64,000 nt of DNA from Sulfurospirillum sp. (lineage in GTDB: Bacteria; Campylobacterota; Campylobacteria; Campylobacterales; Sulfurospirillaceae), in the NCBI GenBank assembly GCA_016744795.1, contig JADGDR010000004.1, positions 62,001 to 126,000 of the forward strand, given 5' to 3'. A program made the position numbers and the translations under genes. The notes beneath the pieces are model-generated. The model searched no databases. It worked only from the letters and a program-made list of their open reading frames with translations, and was not told the DNA's origin. Below are positions 5,045 through 45,951 of the stretch, one piece after another. Each line of letters begins with the position of its first letter. Within the stretch, counting starts at the first letter, position 1.

Positions 5045-6202
5045 ATGTATAAAATAATAGCAGCTTGCGTAATTGCAATAATTTTTTCTTTACCATTTGT
5101 TAATTTTGACTCTAATTATGAAGGAAAAGAGATAAGGCTTGGTATGAGTGGACCATTTAGTGGCAGTCTTCATACCATTGCGGATGAGTTGATGCTAGGA
5201 ATTGATGCTTACTTTAAGCATGTTAACTCCCAAGGTGGAATCTATGGAAGAGTTTTTAGAGTTATTACAAGAGACGATAAGTATGAGCCTAAAATAACAG
5301 CTGAAAATGCAGAAGAATTGATAAATAAACAAAAAGTATTTGCCTTTTTAGGTTTTATAGGAACACCCACTAGTAAGGTAGCTTTACCTATTGCTATGAA
5401 GTATAGAATTCCATATATTGGGGCATTTACAGGAGCTGATTTTTTAAGAGAGACGCCAAGAAATCCTCTTGTTTTAAATGGAAGAACGAGTTATAAAAAA
5501 GAGATAGAATCATTAATTAAATACTTTGTAGATGAAAAAGAAAATACAGATATAGCAGTATTTTATCAAAACGATAGTTATGGGCGTTTAGGTCTAATAG
5601 GAGTTAAAGAGGCTCTTAGAAAAAGAAATATGAACTTAGTAGCCGAAGGGAGTTACAAAAGAAATACACTCTCAGTGGGTAATGCTCTTTATGAAATTTC
5701 TCAAAATAGACCTCAAGTCATCATCATGGTGGGTGCAACTAAACCAACAGCAGAATTTATAAGAAGAGCAAGAAAAGACAAAAATCTTAAAAATGTTAAG
5801 TTTGGGGCTATCTCTTTTATAGGTTCTAGAATGCTATTAAACGCTCTTAATGAAAAAGTAGAAAATATAATTTTTTCACAAGTAGTGCCATCTCCATGGA
5901 GTGCTTTGTCACAAGAAGTTGTATTGTATAGAGAGCTTATGGATAAGTATAATCCAAATAAAGAGTATAGTTATGTCTCACTTGAAGGTTTTTTTATAGC
6001 TAAAATGACAACAGAGTTGTTTAAAAGAGTAGGTAAGGATTTTTCAAAAGAAGATTTCATAAACGAGATGAAATATCTCTATGAAGAGATAGAAAATAAC
6101 CAAGATGTACAAGAGAGTAGAAGAGTATGTAAATGCCTCAACAATGTCTATTTAACATATTATAAAGATGGTATCTTTTGGGATGTAAATGAAAAAAATT
6201 AA
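5045..6202 (+). CDS. periplasmic substrate-binding protein (LivJ-like, type 1 fold), likely kinase-associated sensor
   Basis: A 385-residue protein with an N-terminal hydrophobic signal segment (residues 3-20) and a Peripla_BP_6 domain. It opens with I-R-L-G-M-S-G-P-F-S-G, the usual first strand of branched-chain amino-acid/amide-binding proteins, followed by A-F-L-G-F-I-G-T-P-T-S near residue 97. No ABC permease or ATPase gene is nearby. Instead the gene overlaps a histidine kinase by 14 bases, so the protein probably reports ligand occupancy to that kinase rather than feeding a transporter. There is no recognisable ribosome site before the ATG, and the candidate -10 lies so close that the message may be leaderless. 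The ligand cannot be predicted. Confidence 0.85.
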   Translation: MYKIIAACVIAIIFSLPFVNFDSNYEGKEIRLGMSGPFSGSLHTIADELMLGIDAYFKHVNSQGGIYGRVFRVITRDDKYEPKITAENAEELINKQKVFAFLGFIGTPTSKVALPIAMKYRIPYIGAFTGADFLRETPRNPLVLNGRTSYKKEIESLIKYFVDEKENTDIAVFYQNDSYGRLGLIGVKEALRKRNMNLVAEGSYKRNTLSVGNALYEISQNRPQVIIMVGATKPTAEFIRRARKDKNLKNVKFGAISFIGSRMLLNALNEKVENIIFSQVVPSPWSALSQEVVLYRELMDKYNPNKEYSYVSLEGFFIAKMTTELFKRVGKDFSKEDFINEMKYLYEEIENNQDVQESRRVCKCLNNVYLTYYKDGIFWDVNEKN

Positions 6203-7802
6203 TAACCCTTTTAAAGATTTTATGGGCAGTATTGAAAATATGACAATAGCTAAAAAAACCAGTTTACTGTTTTTAATTATGGTTATTGGCATGCTTTTTA
6301 TTGGAGGTTTTGCACATATGAGTCTTAACCGCATTAAGGGCGATTTTGATATTCTTTATGACAAAAGAATGGTGCCAGTAATTCGTTTGGAAAAGATAAA
6401 AGATATATATACAGTCAATATACTTGACACTCTAAGAGATGTAGAGAGCAGTCATATAAGTGTAGAAGATGGGAAAAGCATTATTCTTCTTGCTCAAGAT
6501 CTCATTAGACGAGATTGGAGTGAGTATAAGACTAGCCTTACAATAGATGAAAAAGATTGGATTGTTGATATTGCCCAATCTATGAAGTTGATAAACACAG
6601 GTAATAACAAATTAGGCAAGTCGTTAGAAGAAGATATGATTTCTTCTATTGAAAAAAAGGTTGGGCAGATTGATCATATTTTAGTCGATATATTTAAACT
6701 TTTTGCTAAAAATCACACAGCAGATGCTTTTAATCGCCTGCAAGAAGATTTGTATCCTAGCGTAAATTCCATAAACATACATCTTACACAGCTTATAAGT
6801 TTAAATTTAGAAGCAGCAAGTAATGGAAAAAAGAGAACTGAAACAGTTTATGAAAATACTTTTTCATGGATTGTTGCTGCGACTGTAGGGACTATAGCAA
6901 TTGCTGCTTTTCTTGCAACTGTAATTTTACAAAACATTAGACTACTACATGAGCAACTTGCAAGAATTGTTGATGCAAAAACAAAAGAATTACAAGATTT
7001 AAATAGTGCCTTAGAAGATAAAATTGCTCTTGAAGTGGAACATAGTCGTCAAAAAGATCAGATTATGTTTAGACAATCGAGACTAGCCGCCATGGGAGAG
7101 ATGGTAGGCAATATTGCTCACCAGTGGCGACAACCGCTTAATGCAATAGTTCTTATAGTTCAGAGTTTTCAGATGAAACAGATGTTAGGTAAACTTGACG
7201 ATAAGTTTATTGATTCTCAAGTTGATGAAGGTATTAAATTAGCAACTTCTATGTCACAAACAATAGATGATTTTAGAAACTTTTTTAAACCAAATAAAAT
7301 AGAAGAATATTTTAGTACAAAAAAGGCTATAAAAGAGTCTATTGACTTGGTTCAGAACTATTATGAAAAAGTAGATATAAAGATAAATTTAATATGTGAA
7401 GAAGATTTTGAAATATTAGGTTACCCAAATGAATTTTCACAGGTAATGATGAACCTTTTTTCAAATTCTAAAGATGTTTTAAATGAACAAAAAAATCAGA
7501 AAAAATATATTGAGATTATAGTAAAAGTTGATACACAAAATTTAAAAGGAAAAATTTTAGTTATAGATAATGGTGGAGGAGTCCCTGTAGAAGTAATTGA
7601 TAGAATGTTTGATCCATACTTTACAACAAAACATCAAAGCAGTGGAACAGGGATAGGTTTATATATGTCAAAAGAGATTATAGAAAAACAGATGCATGGA
7701 TCAATTGAGGTACAAAACATTTCTCATAAATTTTTAGAAGACAAAAAGGTTTATGAAAAATGTGCTAGTATCAATATTGCGATGCCTATAAATGAGAAAT
7801 AG
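6189..7802 (+). CDS. membrane sensor histidine kinase paired with the binding protein
   Basis: A 537-residue kinase. TM1 is at about 24-46, a helical periplasmic region runs 47-222 and TM2 is at about 226-250. A coiled coil (255-295) leads into a HisKA-like segment with H311 in N-I-A-H-Q-W-R-Q-P-L-N, the form common in Campylobacterota. The ATPase domain shows N-E-F-S-Q-V-M-M-N-L-F-S-N-S (N box), D-N-G-G-G-V and G-T-G-I-G-L. The periplasmic part looks like a four-helix-bundle sensor and probably contacts the co-encoded binding protein. The ATG at 6189 overlaps the upstream gene. A response regulator follows after 12 bases, preceded by AGAAGGAG. Confidence 0.93.
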   Translation: MKKINNPFKDFMGSIENMTIAKKTSLLFLIMVIGMLFIGGFAHMSLNRIKGDFDILYDKRMVPVIRLEKIKDIYTVNILDTLRDVESSHISVEDGKSIILLAQDLIRRDWSEYKTSLTIDEKDWIVDIAQSMKLINTGNNKLGKSLEEDMISSIEKKVGQIDHILVDIFKLFAKNHTADAFNRLQEDLYPSVNSINIHLTQLISLNLEAASNGKKRTETVYENTFSWIVAATVGTIAIAAFLATVILQNIRLLHEQLARIVDAKTKELQDLNSALEDKIALEVEHSRQKDQIMFRQSRLAAMGEMVGNIAHQWRQPLNAIVLIVQSFQMKQMLGKLDDKFIDSQVDEGIKLATSMSQTIDDFRNFFKPNKIEEYFSTKKAIKESIDLVQNYYEKVDIKINLICEEDFEILGYPNEFSQVMMNLFSNSKDVLNEQKNQKKYIEIIVKVDTQNLKGKILVIDNGGGVPVEVIDRMFDPYFTTKHQSSGTGIGLYMSKEIIEKQMHGSIEVQNISHKFLEDKKVYEKCASINIAMPINEK

Positions 7803-7814
7803 AAGGAGTAATAG

Positions 7815-8480
7815 ATGGACTTAAATTGTTTAAAAGATTGTGTTATATTGTACGTCGAAGATGAACAGAGTGTACAAAACCAAACAAAGATGATACTTGA
7901 TGATTTTGTCAAAGAGGTTAAAACAGCAAGTGATGGTGAAGAGGGGTTAAAAATTGCTCTTGAAGAAGATATAGACATTATTGTTACAGATATTATGATG
8001 CCCCATATGAATGGTATAGATATGCTTAAAGAGTTAAAAACGACTCATAAAAAAGAGATACCAACTATTATAACTACAGCTTTTACAGAGACTGAGTATC
8101 TTATGGAAGCAATTAAATTAAAAGTTGATGGTTTTATAATTAAACCTATAAATATAAAAGATTTGATAAATGCTATCTATACAGTTATGTTACCAAAAGT
8201 GCAAAAAGAGGAACTTAAAGGTTGTTCTTATATGGTAGATGCTCTTTCTATTCTAGTTGGGGGTAAAAAAATTGAGATTTTGAAGTATATTATCAATAAT
8301 CTTGATAAAGAACATATCTTTTATGGTTCATACCAAGATATAATGGATAACATTGGAGTTAGTAAACCAACGGTGGTCAATATGTTCAAACAGCTAATAC
8401 AAGCTGGAGTTTTAGAAAAGATCAAAAATAAAGTTTATCGTTTTAAAAATACAAAATTTATAAAAGAAGAGGTATCGTAA
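7815..8480 (+). CDS. response regulator with RepL-like winged-helix output domain
   Basis: A 221-residue protein. The receiver domain (1-125) has E15/D16, phospho-acceptor D59 in V-T-D-I-M-M-P and K110 in I-I-K-P. The output domain (about 140-215) is not OmpR, NarL or Fis type. Its order, E-I-L-K-Y-I-I-N-N-L then Q-D-I-M-D-N-I-G-V-S-K-P-T-V and V-Y-R-F-K-N, resembles the winged helix of the RepL plasmid-replication family, used here presumably as a transcription factor. The ribosome site is strong. It completes a binding protein / kinase / regulator operon. Targets are unknown; the adjacent cyclophilin gene starts immediately after the stop. Confidence 0.85.
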   Translation: MDLNCLKDCVILYVEDEQSVQNQTKMILDDFVKEVKTASDGEEGLKIALEEDIDIIVTDIMMPHMNGIDMLKELKTTHKKEIPTIITTAFTETEYLMEAIKLKVDGFIIKPINIKDLINAIYTVMLPKVQKEELKGCSYMVDALSILVGGKKIEILKYIINNLDKEHIFYGSYQDIMDNIGVSKPTVVNMFKQLIQAGVLEKIKNKVYRFKNTKFIKEEVS

Positions 8481-42403: not shown

Positions 42404-42587
42404 TATATTCCTTTAAGCACATATTTTAGATACAATTATACTAGTTTAACCCAAATTTCTAGTTAGAAAAATAAGCAAGTGTATAAAAACCACTTCTATT
42501 GGTGGCTTTTTAATTAAGTTGAAATTATTCATTACTGCCTGTAGTATTGATATGTTTTATAAATAATTTTATCTAGAAAGTATAAAG
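42404..42587. other. divergent gap between miaA and the PAS/winged-helix regulator
   Basis: A 184-base AT-rich gap. The left end holds the miaA promoter. TTTCTA/TAGAAA (42456-42469) is a small dyad. A CCAC...GTGG element with a following CTTTTT (about 42490-42513) looks weakly like a terminator on the + strand although no gene precedes it on that strand. No coding sequence is seen. Confidence 0.35.
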
Positions 42588-43271
42588 ATGAATCAAAATA
42601 TACAAGATAGTTTAAAAGAGTCTTACAAAAATAAATTTACAATATTTGATAATATGCCTTACCGTGTTTATGTAAGAAATAGGTTTGGAATTATTGTTTA
42701 TGCCAACGAGATGACAAGAGATATTTTGCTATGTTCTCCTAGCAAAATTGTAGGGAGAAAGTATGAAGACATTTTTAAAGATGATGGTTTTATAAGTCAA
42801 CTTCAAAAGCATGATAAAATTTTTTGTAAAACAAAACTAAAATTCTTTGTTTCCATACAAGAACAAAATAAATATTATAAAAAAGAGGGCATTGTTAAAG
42901 TAATAGACTTTCTAGATGAACAAAAAAATGAAAGTTTTATAGTTACAATACTAGTGGAATTAAATGACACATTTGATATGAAAAATAGCTTATCCTTTTC
43001 CAATCATGGGGTACTAAATCCAGTTAGTAGAATATTTTATCTTAATAATAAAAAAACAATAAATTTAACAAAAACAGAAAATTCTTTACTTCTTCTTTTG
43101 TATGAGAAAAAAGGTGAAGTTGTTGATTATGATGAAATATTTTTAACTCTAGACATTAAAAATAAAATGACAAAAAACTCTTTAAAAATGATTATATATA
43201 GGCTTAAGAAAAAGATAGGTAAAAGTATAATTGAAAATGTATTAGATTTAGGATATAGATTAAATTTGTAA
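42588..43271 (+). CDS. PAS domain protein with OmpR-type winged-helix DNA-binding domain
   Basis: A 227-residue regulator. The first part (about 20-125) is a PAS domain (F-D-N-M-P-Y-R-V-Y-V-R-N then I-V-Y-A-N-E, K-I-V-G-R-K-Y-E-D-I-F). The C-terminal 85 residues form an OmpR/PhoB-like winged helix (N-L-T-K-T-E-N-S-L-L-L-L-L, S-L-K-M-I-I-Y-R-L-K-K-K-I-G and L-G-Y-R-L). There is no receiver domain and no phospho-acceptor, so the PAS domain presumably senses a ligand or redox state directly in the cytoplasm. It lies just upstream of the dcuC/iadA pair, whose promoter holds an 11-bp direct repeat suited to this kind of DNA-binding domain. Confidence 0.85.
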   Translation: MNQNIQDSLKESYKNKFTIFDNMPYRVYVRNRFGIIVYANEMTRDILLCSPSKIVGRKYEDIFKDDGFISQLQKHDKIFCKTKLKFFVSIQEQNKYYKKEGIVKVIDFLDEQKNESFIVTILVELNDTFDMKNSLSFSNHGVLNPVSRIFYLNNKKTINLTKTENSLLLLLYEKKGEVVDYDEIFLTLDIKNKMTKNSLKMIIYRLKKKIGKSIIENVLDLGYRLNL

Positions 43272-43281
43272 AATATTTAAA

Positions 43282-43314
43282 TGTTACCAGAGTGTTACTT
43301 CATAGAGATATAAT
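43282..43314 (+). promoter_or_regulatory. dcuC/iadA promoter with PhoB-like direct repeat
   Basis: TGTTAC at 43282-43287 is repeated exactly at 43293-43298, a period of 11 bp. A TATAAT -10 box is at 43309-43314, ten bases after the second repeat. This is the spacing of OmpR/PhoB-type activator sites that replace the -35. The gene immediately upstream encodes a regulator with that type of DNA-binding domain. Confidence 0.6.
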
Positions 43315-43344
43315 TTTAGTATAAATTTTTCAAAAGGAGATAAA

Positions 43345-44700
43345 ATGGGAACATTGATTTGTGTATTAGTTATCATGTTGGTTGCTTATTTAATTGTGAA
43401 AAAGCATAATCCACAAGCAGTTTTAATCTTGGGTGGATTTATCATGATGGCATGTGCTATTATATTTGGTTTAGGAACACCTTTACCAGAAGCAAAATCT
43501 ACAGGATTTGTTTGGTTTGACATAGTTGAATATGTTAAAGTTGTTTTAAGTTCGCGAGGAGCAGGACTTGGACTTTTAATTATGGCAGTTGGTGGATTTT
43601 CTATTTATGTAAGTAAAATAGGTGCTAGTGACGCCATTGTTTATCTTATAGCAAAACCCATATCAAAACTAAAATCTCCGTATATTGTTGCTGCTTTAGT
43701 GATACCTATAGGACAGTTATTATCTGTATTTATTTCTTCTGCAACTGGTTTGGGATTACTTTTAATGGCTTCAATTTATCCTATTTTAATAAGACTTGGA
43801 GTTAGTAAATTAACAGCTACAAGTGTTATAGCTTCTACTTTAGCTTTTGATATAGGACCAAGTAGCGGAAATACAAATCTAGCTGCAAGTACTATAGACA
43901 TGAGTGTTGTAGAATATTTTTTATCTCATCAAATTCCAATAGTAGTTCCAAGTATCATAATTATGGCTATTGCACACTATTTTACACAAAAATATTTTGA
44001 TAAAAAAGATGGAACAATAAGCACAATGGTTCAGGGAGAAAGAGCTGATTTTAAACTTGAGACACCATTGATTTATGCATTAATTCCAATTTTACCACTA
44101 CTTTTTATAGTAACTTTTTCAAGTTTTTTTAACTCACCAATAAAAATGAATGTAACAACAGCTATGTTACTTTCCCTGTTTATAGCTATGATTTTTGAGT
44201 TTGTAAGACATAAAAACTTACAAAAAGTTTTAAACTCATTGCAAGTGTTTTGGGATGGCATGGGAAGAGTTTTTGCAACAGTTGTAACCCTTATAATTGC
44301 TGGACAAACATTTTCACAAGGTTTAAAGTCATTAGGTTTTATAGATGGACTAATTTCTTTAACGCAAGGTCTTGGTTTTGGTGTAGTTGTTATAACAGTA
44401 ATATTCTCATTTCTAATATTTCTTACAGCAGTACTTATGGGAAGTGGAAATGCTCCATTTTTTTCTTTTGGCCCAATGGTTCCAGAGATTGCAAAAAAAA
44501 TTGGAACTGATAGTTTAAGTATGATTTTACCAATGCAGCTAGCAGCTGGAATTGGACGGACGATGTCTCCAATTGCAGGTGTTGTTATAGCAGCAGCTGG
44601 AATTTCTGGAGTTTCTCCATTTGATGTAGCTAAACGAAATACAATACCTATGTTATGTACTCTTCTTTGTATGTTCGTCATGAACTTTTTAGTTTATTAA
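43345..44700 (+). CDS. dcuC: DcuC-family C4-dicarboxylate carrier
   Basis: A 451-residue, roughly 12-helix membrane protein of the DcuC/YfcC-like ion transporter family. Landmarks are A-V-G-G-F-S-I-Y, the F-I-S-S-A-T-G-L-G-L-L-L-M stretch, G-P-S-S-G-N-T-N-L-A-A and the C-terminal G-I-G-R-T-M-S-P-I-A-G-V-V. Such carriers exchange or export succinate, fumarate or aspartate. Pairing with isoaspartyl dipeptidase suggests movement of aspartate, an isoaspartyl dipeptide or a C4 product. The ribosome site AAAGGAGA is strong and iadA follows after nine bases. Confidence 0.82.
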   Translation: MGTLICVLVIMLVAYLIVKKHNPQAVLILGGFIMMACAIIFGLGTPLPEAKSTGFVWFDIVEYVKVVLSSRGAGLGLLIMAVGGFSIYVSKIGASDAIVYLIAKPISKLKSPYIVAALVIPIGQLLSVFISSATGLGLLLMASIYPILIRLGVSKLTATSVIASTLAFDIGPSSGNTNLAASTIDMSVVEYFLSHQIPIVVPSIIIMAIAHYFTQKYFDKKDGTISTMVQGERADFKLETPLIYALIPILPLLFIVTFSSFFNSPIKMNVTTAMLLSLFIAMIFEFVRHKNLQKVLNSLQVFWDGMGRVFATVVTLIIAGQTFSQGLKSLGFIDGLISLTQGLGFGVVVITVIFSFLIFLTAVLMGSGNAPFFSFGPMVPEIAKKIGTDSLSMILPMQLAAGIGRTMSPIAGVVIAAAGISGVSPFDVAKRNTIPMLCTLLCMFVMNFLVY

Positions 44701-44709
44701 GGAAATATT

Positions 44710-45849
44710 ATGAAATTGTTAAAAAACGCATATGTTTATGCACCACAAGACTTAGGTGTTAGGGATGTGTTAATTGGAGGATCATCTATTTTAATGGTAG
44801 ATAAAGATTTATCTTTAAATATACCAGAGCTTGAAATAATCGATTTAAAAGGACATATCTTAACCCCTGGATTTATAGATCATCATGTTCATGTGACAGG
44901 AGGAGGAGGAGAAGCTGGTTACCACTCAAGAACTCCAGAGATAACTTTAAGTGAACTTATAAAATATGGGATAACCACAGTAGTTGGACTTTTAGGAACA
45001 GATGGGTGCACTAGAAGTTTGGAAAATTTATATGCAAAAGTTAATGCACTTGAATTCGAGGGAATTTCAACTTACATGTACACGGGATCATATAGAGTTC
45101 CTACAAATACTATTACACAAACAATTCTAAGTGATATGGTTTTAATAGATAAAGTCATTGGTGTAAAAATTGCACAATCAGATAATCGAGGTAGCTTTCC
45201 TACTGATGAAGAGCTTATAAAAATGTTATCAGATATACGAGTTGGTGGTATGATTTCAAAAAAAGGTGGTATTTTACATATGCACATGGGAGGATTAGAA
45301 TCAAAGCTAGATAATGTTTTTAGGCTGATTAATGATTATCAATTTCCTATAAATTATTTTGAGCCAACACATACAGCTAGAACAAAAGAGTTGTTTAAAG
45401 AAGCTTTGAAATTTCAAAAAATGGGTGGTTTTATAGATGTTACAACTGGAGGCAGTAAATTTGCACCAATACATGAAGTATTTTCTTATGGACTTGAAAA
45501 TGGATTAAATTTAAATAGAGTTTCTCTTAGTTCAGATGGGAATGGAAGTGTGCCAAAGTTTAATAATGCTGGTGAACTTCAAGGATTTGGTTCAGCTTCA
45601 TGCAAGTCAAATATTAAAGTCATAAAAGACTTGATTGATTACAAAATTTTACCTATGGAAAAGGTTATAGCTCTTATGACAAAAAATGTAGCAAAATTTT
45701 TAAATTTTCATAAAAAAGGTGAAATTAAAATTGGAAATGATGCAGATTTCGTAGTTTTTGATAATGAAATGAATATAAAAGACGTTATTGCAAAAGGTGA
45801 GTTTTGTATGCAAAATGGAGAAATTATCAAAAAAGGTTTTTTCGAATAA
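44710..45849 (+). CDS. iadA: isoaspartyl dipeptidase (beta-aspartyl peptidase)
   Basis: A 379-residue amidohydrolase. The first metal motif is H-H-V-H-V-T-G-G-G-G-E-A-G-Y-H-S-R-T-P-E, which matches the IadA-specific G-G-G-E-x-G loop. Further ligands are in H-M-H-M-G-G and F-E-P-T-H, and the catalytic aspartate is in S-S-D-G-N-G-S. It hydrolyses isoaspartyl dipeptides, produced by protein turnover or from cyanophycin, to aspartate plus an amino acid. It is downstream of and co-transcribed with a DcuC carrier. Confidence 0.92.
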   Translation: MKLLKNAYVYAPQDLGVRDVLIGGSSILMVDKDLSLNIPELEIIDLKGHILTPGFIDHHVHVTGGGGEAGYHSRTPEITLSELIKYGITTVVGLLGTDGCTRSLENLYAKVNALEFEGISTYMYTGSYRVPTNTITQTILSDMVLIDKVIGVKIAQSDNRGSFPTDEELIKMLSDIRVGGMISKKGGILHMHMGGLESKLDNVFRLINDYQFPINYFEPTHTARTKELFKEALKFQKMGGFIDVTTGGSKFAPIHEVFSYGLENGLNLNRVSLSSDGNGSVPKFNNAGELQGFGSASCKSNIKVIKDLIDYKILPMEKVIALMTKNVAKFLNFHKKGEIKIGNDADFVVFDNEMNIKDVIAKGEFCMQNGEIIKKGFFE

Positions 45850-45951
45850 CCTTTTTATTGATTATGTAATTTCACCAGTGCTTTATCGCATATTTTAGCT
45901 ACAATTATACCAATTTTTAGTAAAATAGTTCAAAAATATAAGAGGTTAAGA

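Follow-up and report, generated by a model that had tools for sequence, protein, structure and literature searches.

The dcuC-iadA gene pair of a Sulfurospirillum sp. is preceded by a regulator gene and by a short direct repeat located in front of dcuC, which raises the question of what switches the pair on. The locus lies in a 64,000-nt stretch of contig JADGDR010000004.1, here called the window. We consider it probable that the product of the regulator gene is a mobile one-component activator, which acts in a PhoB-like manner on neighbouring aspartate or amino-acid catabolic operons, and here switches on dcuC-iadA from the box at positions 43282–43299. Sequence comparison supports the domain architecture of the regulator, the geometry of the box, and the fact that the two go together in four genera. 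The binding of the regulator to the box, activation rather than repression, the ligand of the PAS domain, and the substrate of DcuC are what we infer.

The regulator gene (42588–43271, forward strand) encodes a protein of 227 residues. Its C terminus matches the Pfam family Trans_reg_C (PF00486) with 40.3 bits against a cut-off of 26.2 (E 3.4e-10), which, together with fold matches to heads of OmpR-family proteins, identifies it as a winged-helix domain of the OmpR/PhoB type. The N terminus resembles a PAS sensor. The Pfam PAS matches of the window protein are below the cut-off (PAS_9, E 0.004), and PAS_9 is matched by all four orthologs, with a best E of 4e-5. Residues 14–136 modelled separately with AlphaFold have the PAS topology (pTM 0.72), and the best PDB matches of this model are PAS domains such as those of FixL, BvgS, and RpfR. 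The PAS fold emerged when this part was folded alone; the full-length model has a mean pLDDT of 73.7, and the matches listed in its fold search are OmpR-family regulators and heads, including those of ToxR and CadC. No receiver domain was found in the protein by Pfam, and the place of a receiver at the N terminus is taken by the modelled PAS fold, so the protein is not a two-component response regulator. The sequence-only reading, which described a PAS sensor joined to an OmpR-type DNA-binding domain without a receiver, is thus borne out by Pfam, the models, and the PDB matches. Among its paralogs in the same genome, the best seven that were examined (loci L002–L008) all have receivers, so the architecture stands apart from theirs. 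A sensor of the heme or LOV type was considered and rejected, because an alignment of the four orthologs contains no invariant His, Cys, or Trp; the lack of a conserved His ligand for heme or Cys ligand for flavin speaks to these cofactor modes alone. A search of plasmids for the regulator returned none. The open-access literature yielded no paper describing a comparable PAS-OmpR one-component regulator.

ToxR/CadC-type regulators are anchored in the membrane and sense through a periplasmic domain. The window regulator shares with them an OmpR-type head without a receiver, but has a PAS domain and no membrane segment predicted, as judged from its sequence and model. PhoB offers a second comparison. 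Both proteins have a PF00486 winged-helix head, and both are associated with an operator of two 7-nt repeats and a 4-nt spacer close to the −10 hexamer; the window regulator differs in its fused PAS domain in place of a receiver, in the half-site (TGTTACY in the window and TATCACT in its relatives), and in its cargo of amino-acid rather than phosphate genes. With PAS in place of the receiver, the protein is not expected to be switched by phosphorylation.

The candidate operator, TGTTACC-agag-TGTTACT, occupies positions 43282–43299 of the forward strand, and its designation is based on its sequence, chance tests, and the architecture at orthologous loci. The two TGTTAC copies, at 43282–43287 and 43293–43298, are repeated with an 11-bp period. 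The hexamer TATAAT (43309–43314, forward strand), the putative −10 element of the dcuC promoter, starts 9 bp after the 7-mer box, which is 10 bases after the second TGTTAC, as had been claimed from the sequence. It is followed by the ribosome-binding site AAGGAG (43334–43339, forward strand) and the dcuC start codon ATG at 43345. In the Pho box, a 4-nt spacer lies between two direct repeats of 7 nt each (PMC4415409), and the two direct 7-mers of the window, likewise 4 nt apart and placed just upstream of the −10 hexamer, have the same layout, which supports the PhoB-like geometry proposed earlier.

The same geometry could serve a repressor. In such a case, the PAS protein would cover the promoter and leave it when the ligand is present. 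This is unlikely in our estimate, even though the box ends 9–10 bp before the −10 hexamer and overlaps the position of the polymerase at all sites seen, as would fit a repressor. PhoB-type activators replace the −35 element. No consensus −35 paired with the TATAAT at 43309 was found at the dcuC promoter, which fits an activated promoter, albeit weakly in this phylum, the promoters of which are not known to have a conserved −35. The geometry also argues against repression, since it equals the layout used by activators of the PhoB type (PMC4415409).

Three orthologs of the regulator, with sequence identities of 36–50%, are encoded in three other genera. Two of them (genomes G168 and G357) are the full-length orthologs among 399 genomes of the order, and the third (G443) was added by a family search. 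Both the regulator and iadA are absent from the other five genomes of the genus to which the window belongs. The genes beside the orthologs have aspartate or amino-acid catabolic functions. In G168 and G357, one side of the regulator is occupied by an MmgE/PrpD protein and a lyase that resembles aspartase but, at 532 bits, scores short of the aspA equivalog cut-off (681); on the other side are a true aspartase and a protein whose N-terminal domain is of the asparaginase type. For these two genomes, the family scans covered the G168 locus and the asparaginase-like protein of G357. An MmgE/PrpD protein and an aspartase-like lyase act together on iminodisuccinate. By analogy, the lyase and MmgE/PrpD genes of G168 and G357 may serve the degradation of N-substituted aspartate. 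The adjoining genes for an aspartase-like lyase and an MmgE/PrpD protein, beside the orthologous regulator, are located at 5502–8303 of locus L038 and 5253–8054 of locus L039. The regulator of G443 is surrounded by genes for a racemase-like protein, a TPP enzyme, a TRAP transporter, an FAD amino-acid oxidase with 2Fe-2S and Pyr_redox partners, and a P5C reductase-like protein.

Each ortholog adjoins the same promoter architecture, namely two 7-mers with an 11-bp period located 9–10 bp before a −10 hexamer. The box of G168 and G357 is upstream of the lyase gene (TATCACTatttCATCACT, 10 bp before TATAAT), and that of G443 is upstream of the racemase-like gene (TATCACTttttTATCACT, 9 bp before TAAACT). 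The half-sites are TATCACT or CATCACT in the relatives versus TGTTACY in the window genome, a difference that counts against our reading. The divergent aspA promoters of G168 and G357 contain the repeats ATACACT/ATATACT and GCACACT/ACATACT, and no exact 5-mer repeated at lag 11; they are not counted as evidence because these repeats are degenerate.

An OmpR-family regulator with a receiver might bind the box instead, for example the orphan CemR/HP1021/Cj1608, with the PAS protein acting elsewhere or together with it. We regard this as rather improbable. The CemR proteins are atypical OmpR-family regulators of the same phylum, and the box TGTTACA was reported, from preliminary results, to be the one bound with the highest affinity by the homolog from C. 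jejuni (PMC6052347); this makes CemR a real rival, since six of the seven bases of TGTTACA are the same in both window copies. CemR is also reported to be conserved across most of the class and to affect importers of C4 acids (PMC11334517). The window genome contains many other Trans_reg_C genes, and a receiver-type regulator with a related head is encoded near the PAS regulator in both G168 and G357. None was seen near the window cassette; G443 has an unclassified gene 1 kb upstream of its regulator. CemR differs from the window regulator in being of the receiver type and in lacking PAS. Against CemR as the binder, its consensus WKTWWCA requires A at the last base, where the window copies have C and T. 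TGTTACC and TGTTACT thus fit the consensus at six of seven positions and are not CemR boxes in the strict sense, and the TATCACT half-sites of the orthologs misfit it at position 2. The tandem layout with the 11-bp period adjoins the PAS regulator in four genera, which also speaks against a binder of the CemR type. Aspartate and C4-acid genes are under OmpR-family control elsewhere in the phylum, as RacR/RacS of C. jejuni controls aspA and dcuA/dcuB (PMC5293742). RacR/RacS differs from the window regulator in being a two-component system that responds to oxygen limitation and nitrate, and dcuC is not its target.

The pairing of PAS regulator and box was evaluated against chance. When the 73-bp gap is shuffled with its dinucleotides preserved, an exact 6-mer with at least two G/C repeated at lag 11 arises in about 0.5% of cases, and is insufficient as proof by itself; if a suitably spaced −10 hexamer is required as well, the fraction decreases to 0.04%. 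The pattern TGTTAC-n5-TGTTAC with up to two mismatches is not more common in the window than in shuffles, so the repeat alone is weak evidence. A pattern built from the sites of the window, G168, G357, and G443, YRTYACYNNNNYRTYACYN{9,10}TANNNT, has five matches in the four whole genomes, four of which are the sites used to build it. The fifth, which did not contribute to the pattern, precedes a Usp-family gene of G443 at a distance of about 11 kb from the regulator. The 399 genomes of the order contain about 97 matches of the pattern and about 94 of its reversed control, as counted by eye; from this background of about 0.24 per genome, the expectation for a match no more than about 12 kb away from a given gene is roughly 0.003. 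A matrix derived from the boxes of the relatives was tried as a means to find the window site blindly, and ranked it only in the top 0.6–0.8%, which is not decisive. A sequence-agnostic test gave p values of 4e-4 for the window, 1.6e-3 for G168, and 6e-3 and 5e-3 for G443, and 8e-6 when combined by Fisher's method without the window; these values are indicative, because some parameters were set after the sites had been seen. A further rival view is that the repeat arose by chance in an A+T-rich gap, in a genome with many promoters, and that the regulator acts elsewhere. We regard this as very improbable: three other genera have the same architecture next to the orthologous regulator (p 5e-8 when the window is included in the combination), and such a box occurs within 100 nt upstream of just one of the 66 window ORFs of at least 100 residues, which is dcuC itself, and of two of the 307 such ORFs from unrelated loci. 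The comparison of four genera supports the claim that the box accompanies the regulator. As a separate observation, tandem TGTTACC/CGTTACC boxes are present 9 bp before TANNNT in six genomes of one genus (f4/g8; G028, G045, G097, G165, G176, and G218), in which no PAS regulator was found, and are possibly the site of another OmpR-family regulator.

The genes downstream of the box encode a DcuC-family carrier of 451 residues (43345–44700, forward strand), which matches the equivalog model NF037994 with 423.6 bits against a cut-off of 100 (E 6e-127), and, starting 9 bp after it, the 379-residue β-aspartyl (isoaspartyl) dipeptidase IadA (44710–45849, forward strand), with 435.1 bits against a cut-off of 331.25 for TIGR01975. 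The carrier does not reach the narrower E. coli-type models PRK10654 and PRK09804, and its substrate may therefore differ. A scan of genome contigs with IadA identified only three distant loci. The earlier proposal that sensor, carrier, and dipeptidase form a self-contained circuit did not hold as a conserved unit. Among about 400 genomes sampled from the order, the dcuC/iadA pair, and with it the trio, was found only in the window genome; the orthologous regulators adjoin other operons, and the closest relatives of iadA (65–68% identity) occur without dcuC, regulator, or box. More distant iadA relatives (42–44%) directly follow the gene of a PF03553 carrier in two families of the order and one Tissierellia genome (L043, 4729–7274; L044, 2534–5120; L009, 3562–6128). 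These pairs support a partnership of carrier and dipeptidase in general, with a PF03553 carrier in place of the DcuC of the window. IadA is also paired with a carrier in cyanophycin or isoaspartyl-dipeptide scavenging loci, clusters of which have been described for scavengers (PMC10206079), but the genes beside the window cassette include no cyanophycinase. A point against our reading is that dcuC of C. jejuni is expressed constitutively and was dispensable for the use of aspartate (PMC5293742).

The genes miaA and mqnP are adjacent in five sister genomes, and in the window they are separated by the regulator-dcuC-iadA cassette. The cassette is flanked by a 35-nt direct repeat, the copies of which are 83% identical and located at 42413–42447 and, in the upstream region of mqnP, 45882–45916 (both forward strand). 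One sister species (L074) has a single similar copy in its empty miaA–mqnP gap. Given the adjacency in the sisters, the flanking repeat, and the single copy at the empty site, the simplest reading is that the three genes were inserted between miaA and mqnP. A terminator-like hairpin followed by a T run is located between the left repeat and the regulator gene, at 42490–42505.

Based on the architecture of the regulator and its box, a mechanism of dcuC-iadA activation by the PAS protein can be proposed. The ligand of the cytoplasmic PAS domain is probably a small metabolite related to aspartate or to aspartate derivatives. Ligand binding would lead two winged helices to bind head-to-tail to the repeat at 43282–43299, next to the −10 hexamer at 43309. 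The bound regulator may then recruit RNA polymerase, as PhoB does, at a promoter that has only a −10 element. DcuC, once expressed, is a candidate importer of a C4 acid or a β-aspartyl dipeptide. IadA would free aspartate from β-aspartyl dipeptides, and aspartase could then convert it to fumarate; the genome encodes an aspartase-family protein that is 67% identical to that of G168.

We speculate, with less confidence than for the locus itself and short of calling it likely, that the four proteins represent a family of one-component PAS-OmpR activators that is small, rare, and mobile. Its members would sense intracellular aspartate or N- or β-substituted aspartate, bind Pho-box-like repeats independently of phosphorylation, and pass from genus to genus along with their operator, the controlled operon being exchanged, the half-site (TGTTACY versus TATCACT) having drifted with the protein. 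If the proposed mechanism is correct, it would be that of PhoB in one protein, with the same head and tandem box, and a fused PAS switch replacing phosphorylation. The four orthologs and their boxes would provide a ready set for studying the coupling of OmpR-type heads to ligand-binding domains and the drift of half-sites. The suggested class of inducers for dcuC-iadA in this lineage would be aspartate and its derivatives.
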